Positions 42,173 to 52,703 of a DNA stretch of 64,000 bases are shown here, in pieces. The stretch lies in the NCBI RefSeq assembly GCF_003095375.1, contig NZ_QEHR01000005.1:248001-312000 (forward strand). Reading direction: 5' to 3'. The DNA is from Marixanthomonas spongiae (lineage in GTDB: Bacteria > Bacteroidota > Bacteroidia > Flavobacteriales > Flavobacteriaceae). Position 1 is the first letter of the stretch; each line of letters begins with the position of its first letter. The notes below the pieces were generated by a model, which did not search any database, was not told where the DNA came from, and saw nothing but the letters and a program-made list of their open reading frames with translations. Both the position numbers and the translations under genes were made by a program.

Positions 42173-45046
42173 ATGATTTTAAAAAATTCCCTAAAAACAA
42201 CGTTGGCCATTTTAATGATGACGGCGTTGGTTTTTACGGCCTGTAAGAATGAAAAGGCCGTGGCAGACAAAGAAGAAAGCGCCTCGCTTTCTGTCGATTT
42301 TGAAAAGTATGAACTGGAAAACGGCTTGGACGTGGTCTTGCATCAAGATACAAGCGATCCCATTGTTTCGGTCGCCATCCAATATGGGGTGGGTTCCAAC
42401 CGTGAAAAAACCGGGCGTACGGGTTTTGCGCATTTGTTTGAGCATATGCTGTTTCAAGAATCGGAGAACGTTCCTCAGGATCAATTCTTCAAAAAAATAC
42501 AGGATGCCGGCGGGACTTTAAACGGTGGTACGTGGAAAGACGGTACCATTTATTATGAAGTGGTGCCCAAAAACGCCATGGAAATGGTGCTTTGGATGGA
42601 AAGCGACCGTATGGGGTATTTAATCAATACCGTAACCGAAAGTGCGTTTTATAACCAACAGGAAGTGGTTCAAAATGAAAAGAGGCAGCGCGTTGATAAT
42701 AACCCGTACGGACACACCAACTGGGTGATCGACAAAAACATCTATCCGGAAGGGCATCCGTACAATTGGCAGGTTATTGGCGAATTAAAAGACCTTCAAA
42801 ATGCGACGGTGGAAGATGTGCGCGAATTTTACGACCGCTTCTATGGCCCAAACAATGCGACACTGGTGTTGGCAGGTGATTTTGAAAAATCGGAAACAAA
42901 AGACTTGATAGAAAAATATTTCGGCGAAATTAAAAAACGGCAAGAGGTCGAAAAAATGGAACCACAGCCGGTTACCATTTCAGAAACCAAACGCCTGTAC
43001 CACGAAGATAATTTTGCGAATGCCCCGCAATTGAATATGGTATGGCCAACGGTACAGCAATACACCGACGATGCGTATGCGTTGGATTTCTTGGCTGAAA
43101 TCCTTTCCGATGGAAAAAAAGCACCTTTATATAAGGTACTGGTTAAAGATAAAAATTTGACTTCACGAACTTCGGCTTACAACAGTTCGCAGGAACTGGC
43201 CGGGGAATTCAGGATCAACATTACTGCTAATAATGGCGTAGACCTGGACAGCGTAGAAGCCGGAATAAAAGAGGCTTTTGCGTTATTTGAACAAGAAGGC
43301 GTGACCGATCGTGATATTGAACGCATTAAAGCGGGTCTGGAAACAGATTTTTACAACGGCATCAGCAGTGTGTTGGGGAAATCGTTTCAGCTGGCACGTT
43401 ACAATACCTTTACGGGCGACCCTGGCTTTATCGAGGAAGATATTGAAAACATCAAAGACGTCACCAAAGAAGATGTGATGCGCGTGTACAATAAATACAT
43501 AAAAGACAAGCCTTTTGTATTGACCAGCTTCGTCCCAAAAGGCCAAATGGAACTGGTTGCTGAAAATTCAGAAAAAGCACCGGTTGTAGAAGAGGAAATA
43601 AAAGAAAACGTAGAAAAAAACATAACAGAATCCAATGAAACGATCGCCAAAACACCTTCAAGTTTCGACCGCTCCGTAGAGCCCGAACAAGGCCCGGCAC
43701 CAGCATTGAGCATCCCAGATACGTGGACCGCCCAATTGGAAAACGGTATGGAAGTTTATGGCATAGAGCAAAATGAAATCCCTACGGTCAATTTCAGTTT
43801 AGTGATTGAAGGCGGCCATTTAATGGACAGCAAAGACAAAAACGGCGTCGCTAATCTGATGACCGACATTATGATGGAAGGCACCCAAAACAAAACCCCG
43901 GAAGAACTGGAAGAAGCCATCGATCTATTGGGAGCGTCCATCAATATGTACACCACCAACGAGTCTATTGTCATCCGTGGAAATACGTTAACGCGTAATT
44001 TTGATAAAACAATGGATTTGGTCGAGGAAATTTTATTGGAACCACGTTGGGACCAAGAGGAGTTGGGCCGAATAAAAACCAAGACCATTAACCAGATAAA
44101 ACGTAGTGCTGCCAATCCTAATCGGGTGGCGAGCAATGTGTACAATAAGTTGCTGTATGGCGAAGATCATATTTTCAGCCTGCCCACCAGCGGAAGCGAA
44201 GAATCTGTAGGAGCCATAACAATGGCAGACTTAAAAGAATTCTACAACGAGAATTTTTCGCCTTCTATCAGTACGTTTCACGTGGTCGGTAAAATAGACC
44301 AAGAAGAAACCCTGAAACAATTGAACGGACTGGAAAAACGTTGGGAAGCCAAAGACGTCACCATTCCCGAATATCCAATGCCAGAGAAGCGCGACAAAGC
44401 TTCCCTGTATTTTGTTGACATTCCAAATGCCAAGCAGTCTGTAATCAATATTGGTTATATCGCGTTACCACGAACTGATAAGGACTTTTACCCTGCTGAG
44501 GTAATGAACTACAAATTAGGTGGTTCTTTTAACGGTAATGTAAACCTGATCCTGCGAGAAGAAAAAGGATACACTTACGGAGCTCGTACCGGTTTCAGCG
44601 GTAGTAAAACCCCAGGTAAGTTTACCGCATCGTCCAGTGTGCGAACCAATACCACAGGCGAGTCGGTACAAATATTCAAAGATCAAATTGCCAAGTACAA
44701 AGAAGGCATCAGCGAAGAAGATTTGGAGTTCACCAAAAATGCAATGATCAAATCGAACGCCCGCCGTTTTGAAACCCAGTTCTCGTTATTGGGCATGCTT
44801 CAGGAAATGAGCAGTTACGAGCTACCTGAAAATTATATTGAAAACGAAGAGTCCATTGTTAAAAACATGACCTTGGAACAACATCGAGCCTTGGCCAACA
44901 AATATTTGGATGAATCCAAGATGGCTTATGTAGTGGTTGGTGATGCCGCTACCCAGTTTGCCCAATTTAAGGATATGGGCTTTGATGAAGTGAAACTCTT
45001 GAACAAAGAAGGCGAGGAAGTAAAGCTGGAAGAAGTTGAAATGTAA
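42173..45046 (+). CDS. M16 family zinc metallopeptidase, two-domain lipoprotein
   Basis: A 957-aa insulinase-like peptidase. The start at 42173 gives a lipoprotein signal (MILKNSLKTTLAILMMTALV...TAC24); the frame stays open for another 71 codons upstream, but those overlap the tandem repeat and are not protein-like. The first M16 half has the inverted zinc motif H87-L-F-E90-H91. The second half (from about residue 510) has the fold without zinc ligands, as usual. A charged linker (KAPVVEEEIKENVEKN) joins the halves. It degrades peptides in the periplasm or on the membrane. Two strong hairpins follow. Confidence 0.92.
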   Translation: MILKNSLKTTLAILMMTALVFTACKNEKAVADKEESASLSVDFEKYELENGLDVVLHQDTSDPIVSVAIQYGVGSNREKTGRTGFAHLFEHMLFQESENVPQDQFFKKIQDAGGTLNGGTWKDGTIYYEVVPKNAMEMVLWMESDRMGYLINTVTESAFYNQQEVVQNEKRQRVDNNPYGHTNWVIDKNIYPEGHPYNWQVIGELKDLQNATVEDVREFYDRFYGPNNATLVLAGDFEKSETKDLIEKYFGEIKKRQEVEKMEPQPVTISETKRLYHEDNFANAPQLNMVWPTVQQYTDDAYALDFLAEILSDGKKAPLYKVLVKDKNLTSRTSAYNSSQELAGEFRINITANNGVDLDSVEAGIKEAFALFEQEGVTDRDIERIKAGLETDFYNGISSVLGKSFQLARYNTFTGDPGFIEEDIENIKDVTKEDVMRVYNKYIKDKPFVLTSFVPKGQMELVAENSEKAPVVEEEIKENVEKNITESNETIAKTPSSFDRSVEPEQGPAPALSIPDTWTAQLENGMEVYGIEQNEIPTVNFSLVIEGGHLMDSKDKNGVANLMTDIMMEGTQNKTPEELEEAIDLLGASINMYTTNESIVIRGNTLTRNFDKTMDLVEEILLEPRWDQEELGRIKTKTINQIKRSAANPNRVASNVYNKLLYGEDHIFSLPTSGSEESVGAITMADLKEFYNENFSPSISTFHVVGKIDQEETLKQLNGLEKRWEAKDVTIPEYPMPEKRDKASLYFVDIPNAKQSVINIGYIALPRTDKDFYPAEVMNYKLGGSFNGNVNLILREEKGYTYGARTGFSGSKTPGKFTASSSVRTNTTGESVQIFKDQIAKYKEGISEEDLEFTKNAMIKSNARRFETQFSLLGMLQEMSSYELPENYIENEESIVKNMTLEQHRALANKYLDESKMAYVVVGDAATQFAQFKDMGFDEVKLLNKEGEEVKLEEVEM

Positions 45047-45075
45047 TTCATAAATTCCAAGTCAATGATAAATAG

Positions 45076-45102
45076 GGATGCCAATTGGTGTCCCTTTTTT
45101 AT
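45076..45102 (+). terminator. Terminator after the M16 peptidase gene
   Basis: GGGATGCC-AATT-GGTGTCCC (two G-T wobbles), followed by TTTTTT, 29 bp after the stop codon. Confidence 0.85.
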
Positions 45103-45113
45103 AAAAACTGCAT

Positions 45114-45186
45114 AGACCTCAAGGGTTTTAGCTTGTCCGCCGGAGCTATTTCAGCGTAGGAGGTAAAACCTTTAAGGTCTTTTTTT
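45114..45186 (+). terminator. Long repeat-like hairpin with T tract
   Basis: The arms at 45114-45130 (AGACCTCAAGGGTTTTA) and 45164-45180 (TAAAACCTTTAAGGTCT) pair over 17 positions with two mismatches, an inner AGCT..AGCT hairpin sits in the loop, and seven T residues follow. It looks like a dispersed palindromic repeat that can also end transcription. Confidence 0.65.
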
Positions 45187-45231
45187 CTATCTTTAGCTTT
45201 TCATCCTGAATTAATTCTGAAATAAGCTGTT

Positions 45232-46395
45232 ATGAAGACACGCTCCTTTTTTATCCTATTACTTTCAATAATCGTAAGTTGTAATCCTTCCGAAGAAAAA
45301 AAGAAGACCAAAACCAAGATGGAACCTGAACATAACACCGCAGCCAAATCTGAAATCGAGCAATACGATGCTCCTTCGTTTACAGTTGCTGAAGCCAACC
45401 AGTTAATTGAATTTCCTTTGCACTGTGTGGAAAACGAATACCCCAATAAGTTAGGGCAGACCATCGGCAGCGATGAAGATTTGCAGTCCCCCGAGGCGTT
45501 GCATCCCATTTTTTACGGCTGTTTTGACTGGCATAGTGCCGTGCACGGTTATTGGTCTATGGTAACCTTGTTAAAACAGTTTCCCGATATGGAAAAGGCT
45601 GATGAAATAAAACAACTGCTCCAGAAGAACATGACCACTAAAAACGTTTTAAAAGAGTTGGACTATTTTCAAAAAGACATCAATAAAACCTACGAGCGCA
45701 CTTATGGGTGGGCGTGGTTGTTGAAACTCACCGAAGCGTTGCACAGCTGGGACGACCCCATGGCCCAACAATTGGCAGAAAACCTACAGCCATTGACCGA
45801 TGAAATCGTTTTAAAATACAAAGAATATTTGCCCAAACTGGTATATCCCATCCGTGTGGGCGAACACACCAACACTGCTTTCGGCTTGGCGTTTGCGTGG
45901 GATTATGCAAATGCGACCGGTGATACAGCATTTAAGAAGCTGATTGAAAAAAGAGCCAAAGACTTTTACCTGAAAGACGAAAATTGCCCCATCACTTGGG
46001 AACCCAGCGGATATGATTTTCTCTCGCCCTGCTTAGAAGAAGTGGATATTATGCGACGCGTACTTTCTGAAACGGAATTTAAAGACTGGTTAGACACCTT
46101 TTTACCCGCTTTAAAAAACAATGACTACCATCTTGAACCGGGAAAAGTAGGCGATAGAAGCGATGGAAAATTAGTACACCTTGACGGGCTTAACTTTAGT
46201 CGGGCTTGGGTGTTTTATGGTTTGGCAAATCAATATCCCGAATACAAACACCTAACAAATAGTGCAAATGAACATGTTTCCTATTCATATCCTAATTTAG
46301 TGGGCGATTCGTATGAAGGCGGACACTGGCTGGCGAGTTTTGCCATTTATGCCCTTCAGCAAAACCGTAGCGATGAAGGTAAAGCACCGCATTAA
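45232..46395 (+). CDS. DUF2891 family lipoprotein
   Basis: A 387-aa protein. The signal ends in LSIIVSCNPSEE (lipobox). The rest matches DUF2891: FPLHCVENEYPNKLGQ, HPIFYGCFDWHSAVHGYW, TYGWAWLLKLTEAL, GEHTNTAFGLAFAWDYA and ENCPITWEPSGYDFLSPCLEE. The many conserved W, H and E residues and helical pattern suggest an (alpha/alpha)6 barrel like glycoside hydrolases, but no activity is known. The last 23 bp overlap the next gene, an Nramp-like transporter, so they are translationally coupled. pxpABC follow. Confidence 0.88.
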   Translation: MKTRSFFILLLSIIVSCNPSEEKKKTKTKMEPEHNTAAKSEIEQYDAPSFTVAEANQLIEFPLHCVENEYPNKLGQTIGSDEDLQSPEALHPIFYGCFDWHSAVHGYWSMVTLLKQFPDMEKADEIKQLLQKNMTTKNVLKELDYFQKDINKTYERTYGWAWLLKLTEALHSWDDPMAQQLAENLQPLTDEIVLKYKEYLPKLVYPIRVGEHTNTAFGLAFAWDYANATGDTAFKKLIEKRAKDFYLKDENCPITWEPSGYDFLSPCLEEVDIMRRVLSETEFKDWLDTFLPALKNNDYHLEPGKVGDRSDGKLVHLDGLNFSRAWVFYGLANQYPEYKHLTNSANEHVSYSYPNLVGDSYEGGHWLASFAIYALQQNRSDEGKAPH

Positions 46396-47602
46396 AAATA
46401 TTGGTCCCGGTGCCTTGGTGGCTGCCGCTTTTATAGGTCCGGGAACGGTAACCGTTTGCATTGTTACCGGAGTTGCGTATGGTTTTACCTTAATCTGGGC
46501 CATGGTGTTGTCGATCATCGCCACCATCGTGCTTCAGGAAATGGCCGTTAGGTTGGGCTTGGTGTACGGAAAAGGGCTGGCCGAAGCGGTCCGTAGCGAA
46601 ATAACTTCAAAAACAGTCCGCGTGGTCGCTTTGCTGCTTATCCTTTCGGCCATATTAATAGGAAACGCTGCCTACGAAGCCGGCAACATTACTGGCGGAA
46701 TGTTGGGTGTAGAAACCTTGCTTTCAAAATCCACTCTGTCCATTGCTGCCATGGAATTCAATTTTTTAAGTGTATTGATCGGTGCCATTGCTTTTATATT
46801 ATTGTTTATAGGAAATTATAAAATAATAGAGCGCAGTCTCGTTGCTTTGGTAGTTTTAATGAGCCTTTCTTTTATAATCACCGCGTTTTTAACCCAGCCC
46901 AACTGGATGGAAGTGTTGAAAGGGATGTTTGTGCTTACCATCCCCAAAGAAGGTGTTTTGGCTATCATCGCCTTGGTAGGGACAACTGTGGTACCCTATA
47001 ACCTTTTTTTGCATGCGGCATTGGTCAACGAAAAATGGAAGGGGAAAGAAAATTTAAAAGCAGCTAAAACCGATCTGTATTTTTCGGTCGTTCTTGGCGG
47101 GTTGGTTTCCATTGCCATTATTGTTTGTGCGGCTTCCATTGGCAGTTCAGAAATCAACAATGCGGCAGACTTGGCGCAAAGTTTGGAACCGCTATTTGGT
47201 GGTTTTGCAAAATACTTTTTGAGCTTAGGGCTGTTCGCCGCGGGGATTACTTCAGCCATTACGGCACCTTTGGCGACGGCGTATGTGGCAAGGGGCTGTT
47301 TTAACTGGGATGCCGGACTGCAATCGAAAAAATTCCGTGCTGTGTGGATGCTCGTACTGCTAACGGGTGTGCTTTTTTCTTCGGTAGGATTTAAACCAAT
47401 TGAAGTCATTCATTTTGCACAAGTGGCCAACGGTATTTTATTACCGGTCATCGCTGGTTTTTTGTTATGGGCCGTAAATAAAAAAACAGTGTTGGGGCCT
47501 TTTAAGAACACTGCAGCCCAAAATGTTTTAGGTTTTCTTATTGTGCTTGTTGCGGTTGTTTTAGGCCTTCGAAGCCTTGCAAAAGTGTTTTTTGATATTT
47601 AA
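46373..47602 (+). CDS. Nramp-fold transporter lacking the metal-binding residues
   Basis: A 409-aa protein with 11 membrane helices; the start at 46373 (MKVKHRIKNIGPG) is chosen because upstream codons overlap DUF2891. True Nramp metal carriers have D-P-G-N in helix 1 and M-P-H in helix 6. Here helix 1 reads G22-P-G-T25 and helix 6 reads V207-P-Y209, so the Asp, Asn and Met that hold Mn/Fe are all gone. It sits before pxpABC. In Bacillus subtilis, ycsG (an Nramp homologue) likewise neighbours the 5-oxoprolinase genes ycsF/kipI/kipA. An organic substrate such as 5-oxoproline or a related acid is a reasonable inference, unproven. Calling it MntH would be misleading. Confidence 0.85.
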   Translation: MKVKHRIKNIGPGALVAAAFIGPGTVTVCIVTGVAYGFTLIWAMVLSIIATIVLQEMAVRLGLVYGKGLAEAVRSEITSKTVRVVALLLILSAILIGNAAYEAGNITGGMLGVETLLSKSTLSIAAMEFNFLSVLIGAIAFILLFIGNYKIIERSLVALVVLMSLSFIITAFLTQPNWMEVLKGMFVLTIPKEGVLAIIALVGTTVVPYNLFLHAALVNEKWKGKENLKAAKTDLYFSVVLGGLVSIAIIVCAASIGSSEINNAADLAQSLEPLFGGFAKYFLSLGLFAAGITSAITAPLATAYVARGCFNWDAGLQSKKFRAVWMLVLLTGVLFSSVGFKPIEVIHFAQVANGILLPVIAGFLLWAVNKKTVLGPFKNTAAQNVLGFLIVLVAVVLGLRSLAKVFFDI

Positions 47603-47755
47603 ATGCTGGACACTGAATGCTGGAATTTGGAAAAATGTACTTCCCTATAAATAGTGTTGACCGTTTTGAGAGTCATTAGTTTTCAGAAAAAAAATTGATT
47701 TTTCAACCAATTAATTGATTTGTTGTTTTTACCTTAACGGATACCGATTACAGGT

Positions 47756-47775
47756 GGCTGAGCGGAGTCGAAACC
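47756..47775. repeat. Copy of the GGCTGAGCGGAGTCGAA intergenic repeat
   Basis: GGCTGAGCGGAGTCGAAACC in the 192-bp gap before pxpA. This short element is widespread between genes in flavobacteria, from memory. The rest of the gap shows no terminator or promoter I can defend. Confidence 0.5.
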
Positions 47776-47795
47776 CCGGAAATAAAACCCAAAAC

Positions 47796-48530
47796 ATGAA
47801 ACATATAGACATCAACGCAGATTTGGGCGAGGGCAGTGGTTTTGACAAAGCCATTATGCCATTGATTGCTTCTTGCAGTATTGCCTGTGGCGGGCATTAT
47901 GGTAACGAAAGTACGATGCGCACGGCCATTCAATTGGCAAAGAAGTACGATGTGAAAATTGGTGCTCATCCTTCGTTTCCCGATAAAGATAACTTCGGAA
48001 GGAAGATCATTACGATGACCAAAAAAGAGCTCACCGCAACCGTTTTTAACCAATTGCTGCATTTTTTGGCGGTTTGTGAAACCGAAGAAGCCACCATCCA
48101 TCATATAAAATTGCACGGCGCTTTATATAATTATGCCGCCAAAGATGCCCCCACGGCCGATGCGGTAGTGGAAGCGATTGTACAGACAAAAGTACGCCCT
48201 AAATTGTATGTGCAATACAATTCGGTTTTGCACCGTAAGGCCGAAAACTTGCTGCCTTTGGAATTTGAAGCGTTCATTGACAGACGCTACAACGACGACC
48301 TTTCTTTGGTTTCCCGAAGTGAGCCCGGTGCGCTCATAGAAAAACCAAGAACTGCTTGGAAACAGCTGTTTACCATGGTTTCCGAAGAAAAGGTGACAAC
48401 CGCCTCCGGGATTGCTAAACCAATCAATGCCTCTACCTATTGCATTCATAGCGATAACCAACAATCGGTTGAAATTTTGCAGTACATCCATAACCAAATG
48501 AAAAATAATGGGTTAACTTTAAACCGATGA
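47796..48530 (+). CDS. pxpA: 5-oxoprolinase subunit A (LamB/YcsF family)
   Basis: A 244-aa protein. The start is the ATG at 47796 (MKHIDINADLGEG), which matches the family N-terminus exactly; the open frame upstream is not protein-like. Conserved stretches are DINADLGEGSGFD, SIACGGHYGNESTMR and IGAHPSFPDKDNFGR. With PxpB and PxpC it hydrolyses 5-oxo-L-proline to glutamate using ATP in the cytosol. Its stop overlaps the pxpB start (ATGA). Confidence 0.95.
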   Translation: MKHIDINADLGEGSGFDKAIMPLIASCSIACGGHYGNESTMRTAIQLAKKYDVKIGAHPSFPDKDNFGRKIITMTKKELTATVFNQLLHFLAVCETEEATIHHIKLHGALYNYAAKDAPTADAVVEAIVQTKVRPKLYVQYNSVLHRKAENLLPLEFEAFIDRRYNDDLSLVSRSEPGALIEKPRTAWKQLFTMVSEEKVTTASGIAKPINASTYCIHSDNQQSVEILQYIHNQMKNNGLTLNR

Positions 48531-49252
48531 AACAGCCAAATATAAAACCCTATGGTGAAAAGGCCGTATTGATCGAGTGGAGCCCTTCCATCGACAATGA
48601 AACCCTTACCCACGTTTTGCAGGCAAAACAGTTGGTCTTGGAAACATTTCCTGAACAGGTGCTCGAAACCGTTCCTGCTTACAGTTCTTTGGCAGTTTTT
48701 TTGAACAAAGCGGTGCAACAAGATGCTTTTATCGAACAATTGGCGGAAAAACTGAAAAACACGGCTAAGGCAGAGCCGGCAATTTCGCGGGTGTTGCAAA
48801 TTCCGGTGTGTTACGACCCAAAATTTGCCCTCGATATTGAAAAAGTGGCAAAGAAAAACAACTTAACGGTTGCGGAAGTTATCGAGCTTCATACCCAACC
48901 ACAATACAAGGTCTATTTTTTGGGCTTTTTGCCCGGTTTCCCTTACTTAGGTGGCTTGGACGGGCGTTTAAAAACACCCAGAAGAGAAAATCCGAGAGAG
49001 AAAATAGAAACAGGGTCGGTTGCCATTGCAGGCTCACAAACGGGAATTTATACCGCTTCTTCCCCTGGCGGATGGAACATAATAGGAAAATGTCCTTTGC
49101 GATTTTTTTCCATTGAAAAGAAACCACCTGCTTTATTGAAGTTTGGGGATTTTATAAAGTTTGTCTCCATCTCTAAAGATGAATACCGTAAAATTGAAGT
49201 GGAAGTAAATGTCGATATCTATAAAATAGGGGAGGAGGCCAAAAATGATTGA
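48527..49252 (+). CDS. pxpB: 5-oxoprolinase subunit B (KipI/AHS1 family)
   Basis: A 241-aa protein with the AHS1 (allophanate hydrolase subunit 1-like) fold: IKPYGEKAVLIEWSP at the start, then YFLGFLPGFPYLGGLDGRLKTPRRENPRE and GSVAIAGSQTGIYTASSPGGWNIIGKCPL. It forms the B/C part of the 5-oxoprolinase complex. It overlaps pxpA by 4 bp and pxpC by 8 bp. The B. subtilis homologue KipI also inhibits the sporulation kinase KinA, which has no counterpart here. Confidence 0.94.
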   Translation: MKQPNIKPYGEKAVLIEWSPSIDNETLTHVLQAKQLVLETFPEQVLETVPAYSSLAVFLNKAVQQDAFIEQLAEKLKNTAKAEPAISRVLQIPVCYDPKFALDIEKVAKKNNLTVAEVIELHTQPQYKVYFLGFLPGFPYLGGLDGRLKTPRRENPREKIETGSVAIAGSQTGIYTASSPGGWNIIGKCPLRFFSIEKKPPALLKFGDFIKFVSISKDEYRKIEVEVNVDIYKIGEEAKND

Positions 49253-50099
49253 AGTGTTGAAACCAGGACTGTTCACCACGGTACAAGACAAAGGCCGGAT
49301 GGGTTATCGCAGCTTGGGCGTACCATTGAGTGGCGCAATGGACGCCATGTCGGCAGCTATGGCCAACAAATTAGTGCACAATAACACCCAAACCGCGGTT
49401 TTGGAATTTACTATGATGGGACCCCGACTTTTATTTAAAGCGCCCACCGTTATAGCTGTTTGTGGAGCGGGTTTTCACGTGAGGATAAACGATAGGCCAA
49501 TCGAACTGGACAAAGCCACTGAAATTGCCGAAAACGATGTGTTGAAAATTGACCATCCCGACTACGGGAATTATGGTTATTTGGCCGTTATGGGCGGTTT
49601 TGATACCGAAAAGGTCTTGGAAAGCCAGAGTTTTTACCGTACCATCACAAAAAAAGAACAACTTGCCAAAGGCGACCTGTTGAAATTTACAACGGCTTCT
49701 TCCGAAAGAATAAGGCGCCATGCTTCATTTTCATTAGACAGACACCATTTTAAAAATGAAACGGTTGAAGCATTTCCAGGTCCTGAATTTGATTTGCTTC
49801 CGAAGACATTTCAGAAAAAAGTATTAGAATCACACTTAAAGGTAAAACCACAAAGCAACCGTATGGCGTTTGTTATGGAAGGACTGGAGGGCGTTTCGGC
49901 AAAAGAAATCATAACTGCCCCTGTACAGCCAGGAACGGTGCAGCTAACGCCATCGGGCAACTGTGCGGTGTTGATGCGCGACGCCCAGACCACTGGCGGT
50001 TATGCACGGATACTGCAATTGACCGAACAGGCCATCTGCAAACTGGCGCAAAAACGGGCAGGGGAAAAGGTACGGTTTAAAGTAAAGGAACTTTTATAA
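49245..50099 (+). CDS. pxpC: 5-oxoprolinase subunit C (KipA/AHS2 family)
   Basis: A 284-aa AHS2-type protein beginning IEVLKPGLFTTVQDKGRMGYRSLGVPLSGAMD, the family signature, with TPSGNCAVLMRDAQTTGGYARI towards the C-terminus. It pairs with PxpB. A short length relative to some homologues (about 310 aa) is within range. It ends the operon, overlapping the converging patatin-like gene by 6 bp with no terminator between. Confidence 0.94.
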   Translation: MIEVLKPGLFTTVQDKGRMGYRSLGVPLSGAMDAMSAAMANKLVHNNTQTAVLEFTMMGPRLLFKAPTVIAVCGAGFHVRINDRPIELDKATEIAENDVLKIDHPDYGNYGYLAVMGGFDTEKVLESQSFYRTITKKEQLAKGDLLKFTTASSERIRRHASFSLDRHHFKNETVEAFPGPEFDLLPKTFQKKVLESHLKVKPQSNRMAFVMEGLEGVSAKEIITAPVQPGTVQLTPSGNCAVLMRDAQTTGGYARILQLTEQAICKLAQKRAGEKVRFKVKELL

Positions 50100-52703
50100 G
50101 GACAACTGTGGTGCTTTGTTTGTTTCCACACGTTTAGAAGCAATAATACTTTCAATTTCCTCGAATTGCTCGGTGAGCAAAGGATGCTTCAATATGGCCC
50201 TTACGTAGTTGATGCTGCTCTTGCTTAAATGACGGGAAAGCGTGGGTTCATAATATTCCCAAGGTTCAAAAAAAGATTTGTCCTGTTTTTCGGTAAGGGA
50301 AAGTATGCGGTTGTTTTCTTCGGAAAGAAAAGTGTTAAGTTCTTTTTCAATATTTGCTGAAAGGATATAGCCTTTCAAATGGCTTTCAACGTCGGAATAG
50401 GTTACTTTATGCGGCATCATGATCTTGAAATAACGAATGGAGCCTTCGCTGGTTTTTTCGAGGTTGGTAATGTAATCGCTTAAATAGCCGGGGATTTTAT
50501 CGAGATTGAGTCCGGTTTCCAAATCGGCGATAATGTTGTCCGTTTCATTTTCATTCACGGGAATATGATCGATGTGATACTGTTTTTTGAATTTCTGTAT
50601 TAAATGATCGGTGTACAGGCCTTTACTGTTAATGATTTCAATGTAGGCAATTTGTTTGTCGCCCAGCACTTTTTTGTCGCGCATTAAATAATTGTGCACA
50701 TCGAGGCAGCCCAACAGGCCGCTGTTGTCTATGGCCCCGGCATCGATAAAATAGCCATAGCCGGGTATTTTTGCCGCTGGACTGAACACCGGGAACCTAT
50801 TGGTGGTCGATACTGCTTGATAATAGGGGATGGTTTGGTTATTTGTTAAATCGGCCAAGTTTACGGCGAATGGAAATACTTTTTCAAAATCATCTTGTTT
50901 TACAGACCAAAGGATGCCGCGGCTGCCCTGCGTTCCTGCAGTATTCATGATCAATGATGGAAAATAGCCGTTTTTGTTGAAGGCTTCTTTCCAGTAATCC
51001 CGAAATGAAATTTTGGAAAGTTTGTCGCTTGCTGTGTTCTCAATTTCATTTTGATAGTTCCGCATGGCGTAGTAAGGCCGGTCACGAAGGCCGTAGCGTT
51101 GACTGAATGGCCATATTTTACGGTACGAATCGAGCCCGAAGGTTAAGGAAAGATCGAGCGAGGTGTAATTTTGGGCGGCCAAATGATCTATTTTTTTCTG
51201 AATTTTAGTGAAATCAGTGCCGTTTTCTTTATAAAGCCCCGTGTATAATGCCAGTCCTAGCGAACCTCCAGATGCGCCGGAAAGTGCAATGGTTTGATCC
51301 AACAACCTGCCCTGGGTGTTTTTTTGTAAAGTGTTTACTACGTTGAGGGTCCAAACATTGGCTTTAAGTCCACCGCCATGCGAAGCAATGAAAAACAGCG
51401 TATTGTCGTCTTTGGCCCGCAAGCTGTCAATGAAAGCTGTTTCGGTAATTTCAGATTTAGAGTTTTTAACCAGGTCCAGTTGGTGGGTTTTAACTTCCAC
51501 TGGTGCAAAAAAAGTAATGACAAAAAGCCCTACAATGACTCCCAAGGCAATGAAAATCGTTTTGTATAACTGGGTTCCGAACAGGTTGAGTTTTTTGGTC
51601 ACAAAAAAATATTTGCCCAGACTCGCCAAAACAAAATAATAAAAATAAAAAAACGACAACAGGATAGGGATGCCGTTGAGCAACGGCCAACCCTCGATAC
51701 TCCCCACTGTGGAAACCACAATTATGACCAAGGCGACTAAAAAGTTAAGGTTGTACAAAAGCAGGTAATTTTCTGAACGTTCCAGGAAAAGCAATCTTCC
51801 AACGATAAATTTAAAAGGGCTTAATACTTTAGAAGTACCCATTGCGGTGTAAATAGGTGTCAACTTGGTGCGCAACAGCCTAAAAAACACATAATTGAAT
51901 ATAAGCGCATAACTGGTGAGCAATAACAGGACAAAGCCTCCAGGGCTAAAGTTGCCCACTGTTATGGTCAAGACGAGCAACAATAGGCAGACAAAGGCCA
52001 AACTAACGTACCAAACACCTAATTTTATATAGAGTTTGTTTTCTTTGTCAAGACGCTCTTGGTGTGTGCCTGCGGAACTATCGGCGGTCTTGGCACTCGG
52101 CGACTGTTTGAGGGCGGTGAACTTCTCCTTGTAAACAATATATACCACCAACGGAACAAGCAACAGCGGGTACACGATGATCTTTACCGTTGCAAAGGGA
52201 AAGGAGTCGAAAAGAAAATTTGGCGCAAAACTGCTTATTATAAAGTGCACCCAGACACAATGGATCAATATCCCGATAGAGTACCGTAGGTAGTTGGCCC
52301 AATTGTCGGGTTTGTAATTGGACTCTGGGTTGGTGGTAAACACAAAGATGGGGAATTTTTTAAAAGGCCAAAACGGGATGGGATGGGTCTTGTGCCAATT
52401 GGTGTAATCTTCAGAATTATTGAGGTCGGCCGCATAATACGTGTAAATGGGATAATGCGACAACACAAGGGCCAAGGCATTGATAATGAAGAAACAAAGC
52501 AACAACGAAAACTTGCTGGTTTCCATCATATCGACCAGCATGGTAAATGCTTGGTCCATTTGCGTGAGCAGCAATAAAATGATCACGATGACCACCAAGC
52601 TTAAAAACGACGATTTAAAAAAGTTTTTGAACGATCGCAGAAAATGGTTCACGCCGTTTACAAAACGGACAAATAAGGACGCTTTTTTTTGTTTAGCATT
52701 CAT
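50094..52703 (-). CDS. Membrane-embedded patatin-like phospholipase
   Basis: An 869-aa protein. About eight membrane helices fill the first 420 residues. The patatin domain follows, with the oxyanion loop SHGGGLKANVW (about residue 435), the nucleophile serine in GASGGSLG (about 475) and the aspartate in DAGAIDNSG (about 655), which forms the Ser-Asp dyad. It would cut acyl chains from membrane lipids on one face of the inner membrane. It is the last gene of a minus-strand group with two unknown proteins 43 bp and further upstream. Membrane-fused patatins of this length are uncommon in my knowledge; the physiological substrate is unknown. Confidence 0.82.
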   Translation of the reverse strand: MNAKQKKASLFVRFVNGVNHFLRSFKNFFKSSFLSLVVIVIILLLLTQMDQAFTMLVDMMETSKFSLLLCFFIINALALVLSHYPIYTYYAADLNNSEDYTNWHKTHPIPFWPFKKFPIFVFTTNPESNYKPDNWANYLRYSIGILIHCVWVHFIISSFAPNFLFDSFPFATVKIIVYPLLLVPLVVYIVYKEKFTALKQSPSAKTADSSAGTHQERLDKENKLYIKLGVWYVSLAFVCLLLLVLTITVGNFSPGGFVLLLLTSYALIFNYVFFRLLRTKLTPIYTAMGTSKVLSPFKFIVGRLLFLERSENYLLLYNLNFLVALVIIVVSTVGSIEGWPLLNGIPILLSFFYFYYFVLASLGKYFFVTKKLNLFGTQLYKTIFIALGVIVGLFVITFFAPVEVKTHQLDLVKNSKSEITETAFIDSLRAKDDNTLFFIASHGGGLKANVWTLNVVNTLQKNTQGRLLDQTIALSGASGGSLGLALYTGLYKENGTDFTKIQKKIDHLAAQNYTSLDLSLTFGLDSYRKIWPFSQRYGLRDRPYYAMRNYQNEIENTASDKLSKISFRDYWKEAFNKNGYFPSLIMNTAGTQGSRGILWSVKQDDFEKVFPFAVNLADLTNNQTIPYYQAVSTTNRFPVFSPAAKIPGYGYFIDAGAIDNSGLLGCLDVHNYLMRDKKVLGDKQIAYIEIINSKGLYTDHLIQKFKKQYHIDHIPVNENETDNIIADLETGLNLDKIPGYLSDYITNLEKTSEGSIRYFKIMMPHKVTYSDVESHLKGYILSANIEKELNTFLSEENNRILSLTEKQDKSFFEPWEYYEPTLSRHLSKSSINYVRAILKHPLLTEQFEEIESIIASKRVETNKAPQLSL

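Follow-up and report, generated by a model that had tools for sequence, protein, structure and literature searches.

Carriers of the Nramp family encoded in pxpABC operons have been described from several bacteria, namely PxpT of Corynebacterium glutamicum, YcsG of Bacillus subtilis and PxpG of Clostridioides difficile. According to PMC13274462 (2026), C. glutamicum needs pxpT, which encodes an Nramp family protein with 50% identity to YcsG, in order to grow on 5-oxoproline; a plasmid complements the mutant, the result recorded being growth. YcsG itself was renamed MntG because its overproduction raised cell Mn (PMC10448178), the authors remarking that earlier ycsG data might be polar, and PMC13055313 follows the view that YcsG is a Mn importer. 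The locus compared with these systems lies in a window of 64,000 nucleotides of Marixanthomonas spongiae (contig NZ_QEHR01000005.1, positions 248,001 to 312,000 of the forward strand), where a gene for an Nramp-fold protein stands in a pxpABC operon as well; the three described carriers differ from it in being assigned, by gene order and not by their own sequences, to another branch (group II below). On genomic evidence it is probable (about 0.78) that the window gene encodes a secondary carrier of the Nramp (LeuT) fold importing 5-oxoproline (pyroglutamate). The computed basis is a predicted fold, the loss of the metal-ligand side chains of helices 1 and 6, and a clade linked, in archaea as well as bacteria, to two enzymes of 5-oxoprolinase type that are unrelated to each other.

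Family, motifs and predicted fold of the carrier

46373-47602, + strand: Nramp-fold carrier gene of the GPGT clade (group I), ATG at 46373, 409 amino acids (aa), Pfam Nramp PF01566
46436-46447, + strand: helix 1 GPGT, residues 22-25, where metal carriers have DPGN (from sequence and alignment)
46982-46999, + strand: helix 6 TTVVPY, residues 204-209, where metal carriers have ATVMPH (from sequence and alignment)

The protein belongs to the Nramp family by its score of 286 bits against PF01566 (curated cut-off 29.8), and it matches the NCBIfam model NF037982, 'Nramp family divalent metal transporter', with 82.4 bits (cut-off 50). Helix 1 reads IGPGT and helix 6 reads GTTVVPYN. An earlier note on this DNA had observed GPGT in place of DPGN and VPY in place of MPH, and both observations are borne out by the sequence and by an alignment of 258 Nramp rows, in which some loci were fetched twice. 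When the rows were sorted by the helix 1 motif, yielding 172 GPGT rows besides the window protein and 42 DPGN rows, the two sets differed in helix 6 with zero exceptions, having Thr for Ala at 204, Val for Met at 207 and Tyr for His at 209; since only the helix 1 motif was used for sorting, the helix 6 difference was not imposed by it. In the alignment the GPGT proteins share 36-100% identity with the window protein, so the motif is not due to chance. The canonical Slc11 metal-carrier signature (D-x-x-N; A/C-x-x-M and His) is absent, the window protein having G-x-x-T, T-x-x-V and Tyr, and the NRMT signature (D-x-x-G in helix 1; T-x-x-A/T in helix 6) is likewise absent. Canonical Slc11/Nramp carriers (MntH, DMT1) share with group I the fold and a helix 10 Gln, whereas their helix 1 and 6 ligands are gone in the window protein, which is 22-28% identical to the 42 DPGN proteins.

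An AlphaFold model of the window protein (30 sequences) has a mean predicted local distance difference test (pLDDT) score of 88.6. Its helices at 13-20/23-36 and 195-205/208-221 put breaks in helices 1 and 6 in mid-membrane, at 21-22 and 206-207, as predicted for a LeuT-fold carrier. The structure search with this model returned DraNramp with Z 48.9 (root mean square deviation 2.3 over 375 residues), EleNRMT and BfraNramp with Z 45-46, and amino acid carriers such as AdiC with Z 31. The NRMT Mg transporters resemble group I in fold (EleNRMT, Z 45.8, 29% identity) and in lacking the Met ligand, but they keep the helix 1 Asp in a DxxG-TxxA/T arrangement (PMC8806188), where group I has GxxT-TxxV.

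Linkage to two unrelated kinds of 5-oxoprolinase-type gene

47796-48530, + strand: pxpA, 5-oxoprolinase subunit A, 244 aa, PF03746 with 251 bits and NCBIfam NF003814 with 229.5 bits (cut-off 226)
48527-49252, + strand: pxpB, 5-oxoprolinase subunit B, 241 aa, PF02682, and TIGR00370 with 194 bits (cut-off 145.55)
49245-50099, + strand: pxpC, 5-oxoprolinase subunit C, 284 aa, PF02626; 185.5 bits against the PxpC model, below its cut-off of 500

NF003814 is the PxpA subfamily model; the PxpA equivalog models score below their own cut-offs for the window pxpA. The carrier gene, the sole Nramp match in its own genome (3.41 Mb, 99.74% complete), is separated from pxpA by 193 bp. Linkage was assessed in 247 genomes of Bacteroidota, with PF01566 matches in 168 and pxpA in 52, of these 51 over the cut-off; all linkage counts given here are plain counts over sampled genomes, irrespective of kinship. 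About 6 kb on each side (less at contig ends) was read for 50 pxpA genes outside the window, which makes 51 loci with the window. A group I (GPGT) Nramp gene adjoins pxpA in 29 of them, a group II (GPGF, YcsG-like) gene in 6 and neither in 16, and as a control, no Nramp of the DPGN or NRMT type was found in any of the 51. The gap between carrier and pxpA is at most 8 bp in 26 of the 29 group I loci, the other values being the 193 bp of the window, 254 bp and 1216 bp.

A group I profile found 33 matches of at least 464 bits in the same genomes, the next score falling to 344, and 29 of the 30 matches of at least 573 bits adjoin pxpA. Below them lies a subgroup of 20 matches at 262-344 bits, for which 15 loci were read. 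All 15 proteins have GPGT; five of the loci have an enzyme of OPLAH/HyuAB type no more than 1.3 kb away, and a sixth has one at 4.9 kb. At one locus (L300) a DUF2891 gene is found together with those of a GPGT carrier and an OPLAH-type protein of 1279 aa. No match to DUF979, an alternative 5-oxoproline transporter, was found in the 247 genomes. In two Kordia records (L127:9255-10703 and L163:9231-10682), pxpA and pxpB, which lie between the gene of the GPGT carrier and pxpC, share a single long reading frame and are probably fused.

The profile, with a divergent sequence put first to spread the sample, was also run on 84,980 species genomes, and the best 80 of 595 confirmed stretches were examined. 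Most of these loci belong to Flavobacteriaceae or other Bacteroidota; the rest are from a few Clostridia and their relatives, from two records of gammaproteobacteria and from two of Halobacteria. Conserved linkage to a 5-oxoprolinase-type enzyme, as expected of a 5-oxoproline importer, was found in 77 of the best 80 loci (72 with PxpABC, five with HyuAB or a fused OPLAH-type protein) and in 30 of the 30 Halobacteria loci read, where HyuA abuts the carrier. The distance between carrier and enzyme is within 150 bp in 71 of the 77 and within 1 kb in 75; the enzyme is divergent at 3 kb in L145 and at 4 kb in L133. PxpABC and HyuAB/OPLAH are of different Pfam families, and the partners tested of the latter type carry Hydantoinase_A and Hydantoinase_B domains.

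The Halobacteria set (116 genomes, the class of Haloarcula japonica) yielded 32 group I matches of at least 477 bits. On haloarchaeal plasmids, five matches of more than 45% identity were present among the 60 rows listed of 292 records; the four that were read all have the order Nramp-HyuA-HyuB, and the plasmid copies are annotated as metal transporters. All three group I genes in the class of a Natroniella genome (G249; 59 genomes) occur with pxp genes, as do five of the eight in the order of a clostridial genome (G248; 118 genomes), one of them divergent and 2.7 kb off. A D-glutamate cyclase family gene (PF07286) stands between the GPGT carrier and pxpA in one clostridial genome (L278:5814-6644), hinting at D-5-oxoproline.

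In a quick tree of 60 GPGT proteins and six metal-type rows, 39 of which were labelled by partner, at least four changes between a PxpABC and a HyuAB/OPLAH partner are needed. That the carrier stays constant while its enzyme is swapped for an unrelated one of the same kind points to 5-oxoproline as the substrate and not to the history of one operon. The proposal of the earlier note, a branch of the Nramp family for an organic compound, perhaps 5-oxoproline, gains support from this linkage to two unrelated enzyme types, transport itself being a prediction; the conserved link to pxp genes on which that note had staked the idea is present, in 29 of the 30 strongest Bacteroidota matches as in the best loci overall.

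Nramp branches and neighbouring genes

The position of group I was examined in trees of a quick kind, with support from the Shimodaira-Hasegawa-like approximate likelihood ratio test (SH-aLRT) only. The 57-row tree omitted all 11 'other' rows and the 63-row tree five of them (three long-branch, one short and one grouping with canonical rows), and both trees had group I reduced from 42 rows to 22. Group I forms one side of a branch with support 97 (starred) in the 88-row tree, 41 in the 57-row tree and 93 in the 63-row tree. Group II, with the motifs GPGF and GGTVGGY, has its own branch at 100 (starred) in all three, and its 25 proteins are 19-24% identical to the window protein. Other ligand-less Nramps are placed between the two groups in the 88-row tree; in the 57-row tree, made without them, groups I and II are joined against the metal carriers with support 92, unstarred, and in an approximately unbiased (AU) test the tree with the two groups joined stood 2.38 log units above the free tree, p-AU being 0.576. 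The window protein falls outside the group of NRMT rows on the 88- and 57-row trees, and no row with a helix 1 Asp was found inside the GPGT clade on the trees examined. An assignment of group I to NRMT is ruled out by the lack of the helix 1 Asp.

The window protein is not a YcsG orthologue either, as follows from 22% identity and a separate clade. The identity was taken from chain A of PDB 9a52 (the 'YCSG-FABL' integrative model), regarded as YcsG by its 404 residues, in structure alignment with the window model; EleNRMT (29%) and BfraNramp (28%) are both closer. The parallel with YcsG in the earlier note, read as membership of one branch, therefore fails, YcsG lying on another deep branch, and the B. 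subtilis analogy is functional, not orthologous. As to gene order, the carrier gene does precede pxpABC in the window, as that note had said, but ycsG is downstream of pxpA in B. subtilis. Group II orders include pxpA-Nramp-hydro-lyase (B. badius and B. subtilis), Nramp-pxpA after a divergent GntR gene, and pxpA-Nramp-pxpB-pxpC. Plasmid group II Nramps of Klebsiella, Rhizobium, Paracoccus, Lactiplantibacillus and Moraxella (L098, L099, L100, L101 and L237) occur with pxp-like genes and a biotin carboxylase gene, a module that may act on a substrate other than that of plain PxpABC. More metal-ligand-less Nramps, with GSGS, GTGS or GAGS in helix 1, were seen far from groups I and II (L241, L242, L243, L247 and L251); a Bacteroidia genome contributes one of these and Halobacteria the other four.

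By the signature of helices 1, 3, 6 and 10, group I fits the Slc11 'orphan outgroup' of PF01566 (Cellier; PMC10606218, PMC9606685), whose substituents named in the available portions all agree with group I wherever they could be mapped. The mapped ones are Gly for Asp and Thr for Asn in helix 1, Thr for Ala, Val for Met and Tyr for His in helix 6, A-N-G in helix 10, and in helix 3 a Tyr and an Asn four apart with four Gly; the alignments differ in that Asn105 was aligned here to the helix 3 Glu of metal carriers and in the published one to a Gly. No published substrate for group I or the orphan outgroup was found among the matches listed in a literature search, as far as the sources were available. 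A 2026 preprint (PMC12873925) finds Nramp-related proteins to be paraphyletic with respect to canonical Nramps; on this view the metal site may be a later state. An Nramp-fold 5-oxoproline carrier in a pxp operon is a kind known since PxpT; the group I branch, its partnership with two enzymes, its archaeal range and the orphan-outgroup match were not found in print.

45232-46395, + strand: DUF2891 gene, 387 aa, likely a lipoprotein, PF11199 with 464 bits

The 3' end of this gene overlaps the carrier start by 23 bases. A hydrophobic N terminus followed by Cys17, a residue almost always conserved among relatives, makes its product a likely lipoprotein. DUF2891 is the same-strand neighbour of the carrier in 35 of the best 80 loci and lies elsewhere in the locus in three; it is present in 22 of the 247 Bacteroidota genomes, adjoining a strong group I gene in seven and near a subgroup gene in one (L300). 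Thus, it is not tied to the carrier-pxp operon alone. A model of the DUF2891 protein (mean pLDDT 80.2) matches Campylobacter jejuni Cj0554, PDB 8iev, with Z 40.3 and 38% identity. According to PMC12795558, a C. jejuni mutant in a three-gene operon of DUF2891 and DUF969/DUF979 lost growth on 5-oxoproline in a preliminary experiment. The DUF969/DUF979 transporter (cj0552-0553) resembles the window system in the DUF2891 gene of its operon and differs from the window carrier in belonging to other protein families; DUF2891, standing beside both, therefore accompanies two different 5-oxoproline transport systems. The pyroglutamate N termini that exported proteins bear under the Q-rule (PMC10653852) could, as an idea, be one source of 5-oxoproline in Bacteroidota.

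The single gamma-glutamyltranspeptidase gene of the genome is on another contig. The Rfam search of 44500-50300 gave no match. Promoter-like matches numbered 8 with 8.2 expected by chance, which is no excess; terminator-like matches numbered 16 with 6.8 expected, several of them inside genes, and no conclusion was drawn. The element GAGCGGAGTCGAAAC at 47760-47774, in the gap between carrier and pxpA, occurs once in the window with 0 expected by chance and is perhaps a dispersed genomic repeat. Beside the operon, 50094-52703 on the - strand encodes a protein of 869 aa that contains hydrophobic stretches and the motif GASGGS and has no Pfam match at E 0.001.

Proposed 5-oxoproline import and its alternatives

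In the reading favoured here, the carrier would bring 5-oxoproline into the cell by alternating access, and PxpABC of the same operon would open it to glutamate with ATP. The G-x-G motif of APC amino acid carriers binds the carboxylate by main-chain NH groups. In the window protein, the unwound helix 1 (GPGT) would bind 5-oxoproline in a similar way, its main-chain NH groups and Thr25 holding the carboxylate, and the lactam ring might be held by three fixed residues of helices 6 and 10 (Thr204, Tyr209 and Asn353) together with two of helix 3 (Tyr/Phe101 and Asn105). The weakest step gives the DUF2891 lipoprotein a role outside the inner membrane, where it would probably supply 5-oxoproline or present it. 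Further points for the import of 5-oxoproline are that growth on this compound requires PxpT, a distant relative of Nramp fold (PMC13274462), and that DUF2891 is shared with the OPLAH-type locus L300 and the C. jejuni 5-oxoproline operon.

A number of observations weigh against this assignment. The transport function of group I is a prediction from genome data. Side chains that hold Mn or Fe are gone from helices 1 and 6, as the earlier note stated, but not all are missing as it claimed: helix 10 keeps Gln350, as in metal Nramps, whose Gln contacts Mn in DraNramp. Helix 6 is VGY in the Halobacteria loci read and VTY or VAY in some others. Among the Bacteroidota, the 16 pxpA loci with no adjoining Nramp stand on this side, as does the one exception at 573 bits or more, genome G053 (L074:4815-9026), with a row of DUF2891, GPGT carrier and gamma-glutamyltranspeptidase and with pxpABC elsewhere in the genome. 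For three matches at 464-476 bits (L296-L298) the 15 kb read contains no pxp gene, although pxpA is present in their genomes, and no oxoprolinase-type enzyme was found in nine of the 15 subgroup loci read. A 5-oxoprolinase-type gene is likewise absent from the stretch read in three of the best 80 loci (L110, L168, and L147 at a contig end) and in the GPGT members L260-L262, and HyuA from the 1.1-3.7 kb read on each side of the other two Halobacteria matches (L249 and L250). At L299:2749-6926 and L301:5756-9958, two genes precede that of a GPGT protein whose helix 6 has VTY or VAY; in L299 the two encode 2-oxoacid:ferredoxin oxidoreductase subunits, and L301 has the same layout. With such a neighbour, substrates within the GPGT clade may have diversified. 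The manganese data for YcsG also belong here.

HyuAB-family enzymes act on hydantoins and other lactams as well, and of the NCBIfam models it is those for caprolactamase that give the tested HyuAB-type partners their highest scores, below the cut-off. These scores fit a carrier of another small lactam, hydantoin or amino acid (a 5-substituted hydantoin, 5-oxo-D-proline or a gamma-glutamyl compound), with 5-oxoproline at most one of several substrates; so do the Asp/Glu-racemase or arylmalonate-decarboxylase family genes near some members (L093, L250 and L283) and the D-glutamate cyclase family gene of L278. Such a carrier is nonetheless unlikely, as the commonest partner is PxpABC (72 of the best 80 loci), and the known common substrate of PxpABC and OPLAH is 5-oxoproline. 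The idea that the protein still imports Mn, Fe or Mg, the pxp link reflecting only a metal need alongside glutamate or nitrogen metabolism, could appeal to its family, to the retained helix 10 Gln, to the raised cell Mn on YcsG overproduction and the control of the ycsG promoter by MntR (PMC10448178 and PMC13055313), and to the NRMTs, which move Mg and Mn without the Met ligand (PMC8806188). It is very improbable: the NRMTs keep, according to the same source, the helix 1 Asp that no row inside the GPGT clade has on the trees, YcsG is of a different branch at 22% identity, and a metal need leaves the switching of the partner between two unrelated 5-oxoprolinase types unexplained.

Movement of 5-oxoproline outward or both ways, as an osmolyte and not as imported food, seems hardly probable at all. 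Many hosts are marine or halophilic by name, including the Halobacteria, and PMC13274462 mentions 5-oxoproline as a compatible solute in some methanotrophs; yet the usual neighbour is a catabolic enzyme, and the same work reports that growth on 5-oxoproline depends on PxpT, a distant homologue. A wider reading can be put forward as possible, if doubtful. The Slc11/Nramp orphan outgroup would consist of ancient 5-oxoproline (lactam) carriers of bacteria and archaea, sharing with the metal Nramps an ancestor that handled an amino-acid-like solute, with the metal site arising later; the DUF2891-carrier-Pxp operon of Bacteroidota would serve the salvage of pyroglutamate outside the inner membrane, including that of Q-rule N termini, and DUF2891 would be an enzyme that releases 5-oxoproline.

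Databases would name the window gene a metal transporter, by way of NF037982. Through the linkage, the orphan outgroup of a much-studied family of metal carriers gains a concrete candidate substrate. The linkage is also relevant to the disagreement on whether YcsG carries Mn or 5-oxoproline, and it points to DUF2891, a family with a solved structure and no function seen in the literature, as a partner in the use of 5-oxoproline. It also opens a direct test of whether the metal site of the Nramps was derived from a carrier of organic solutes.

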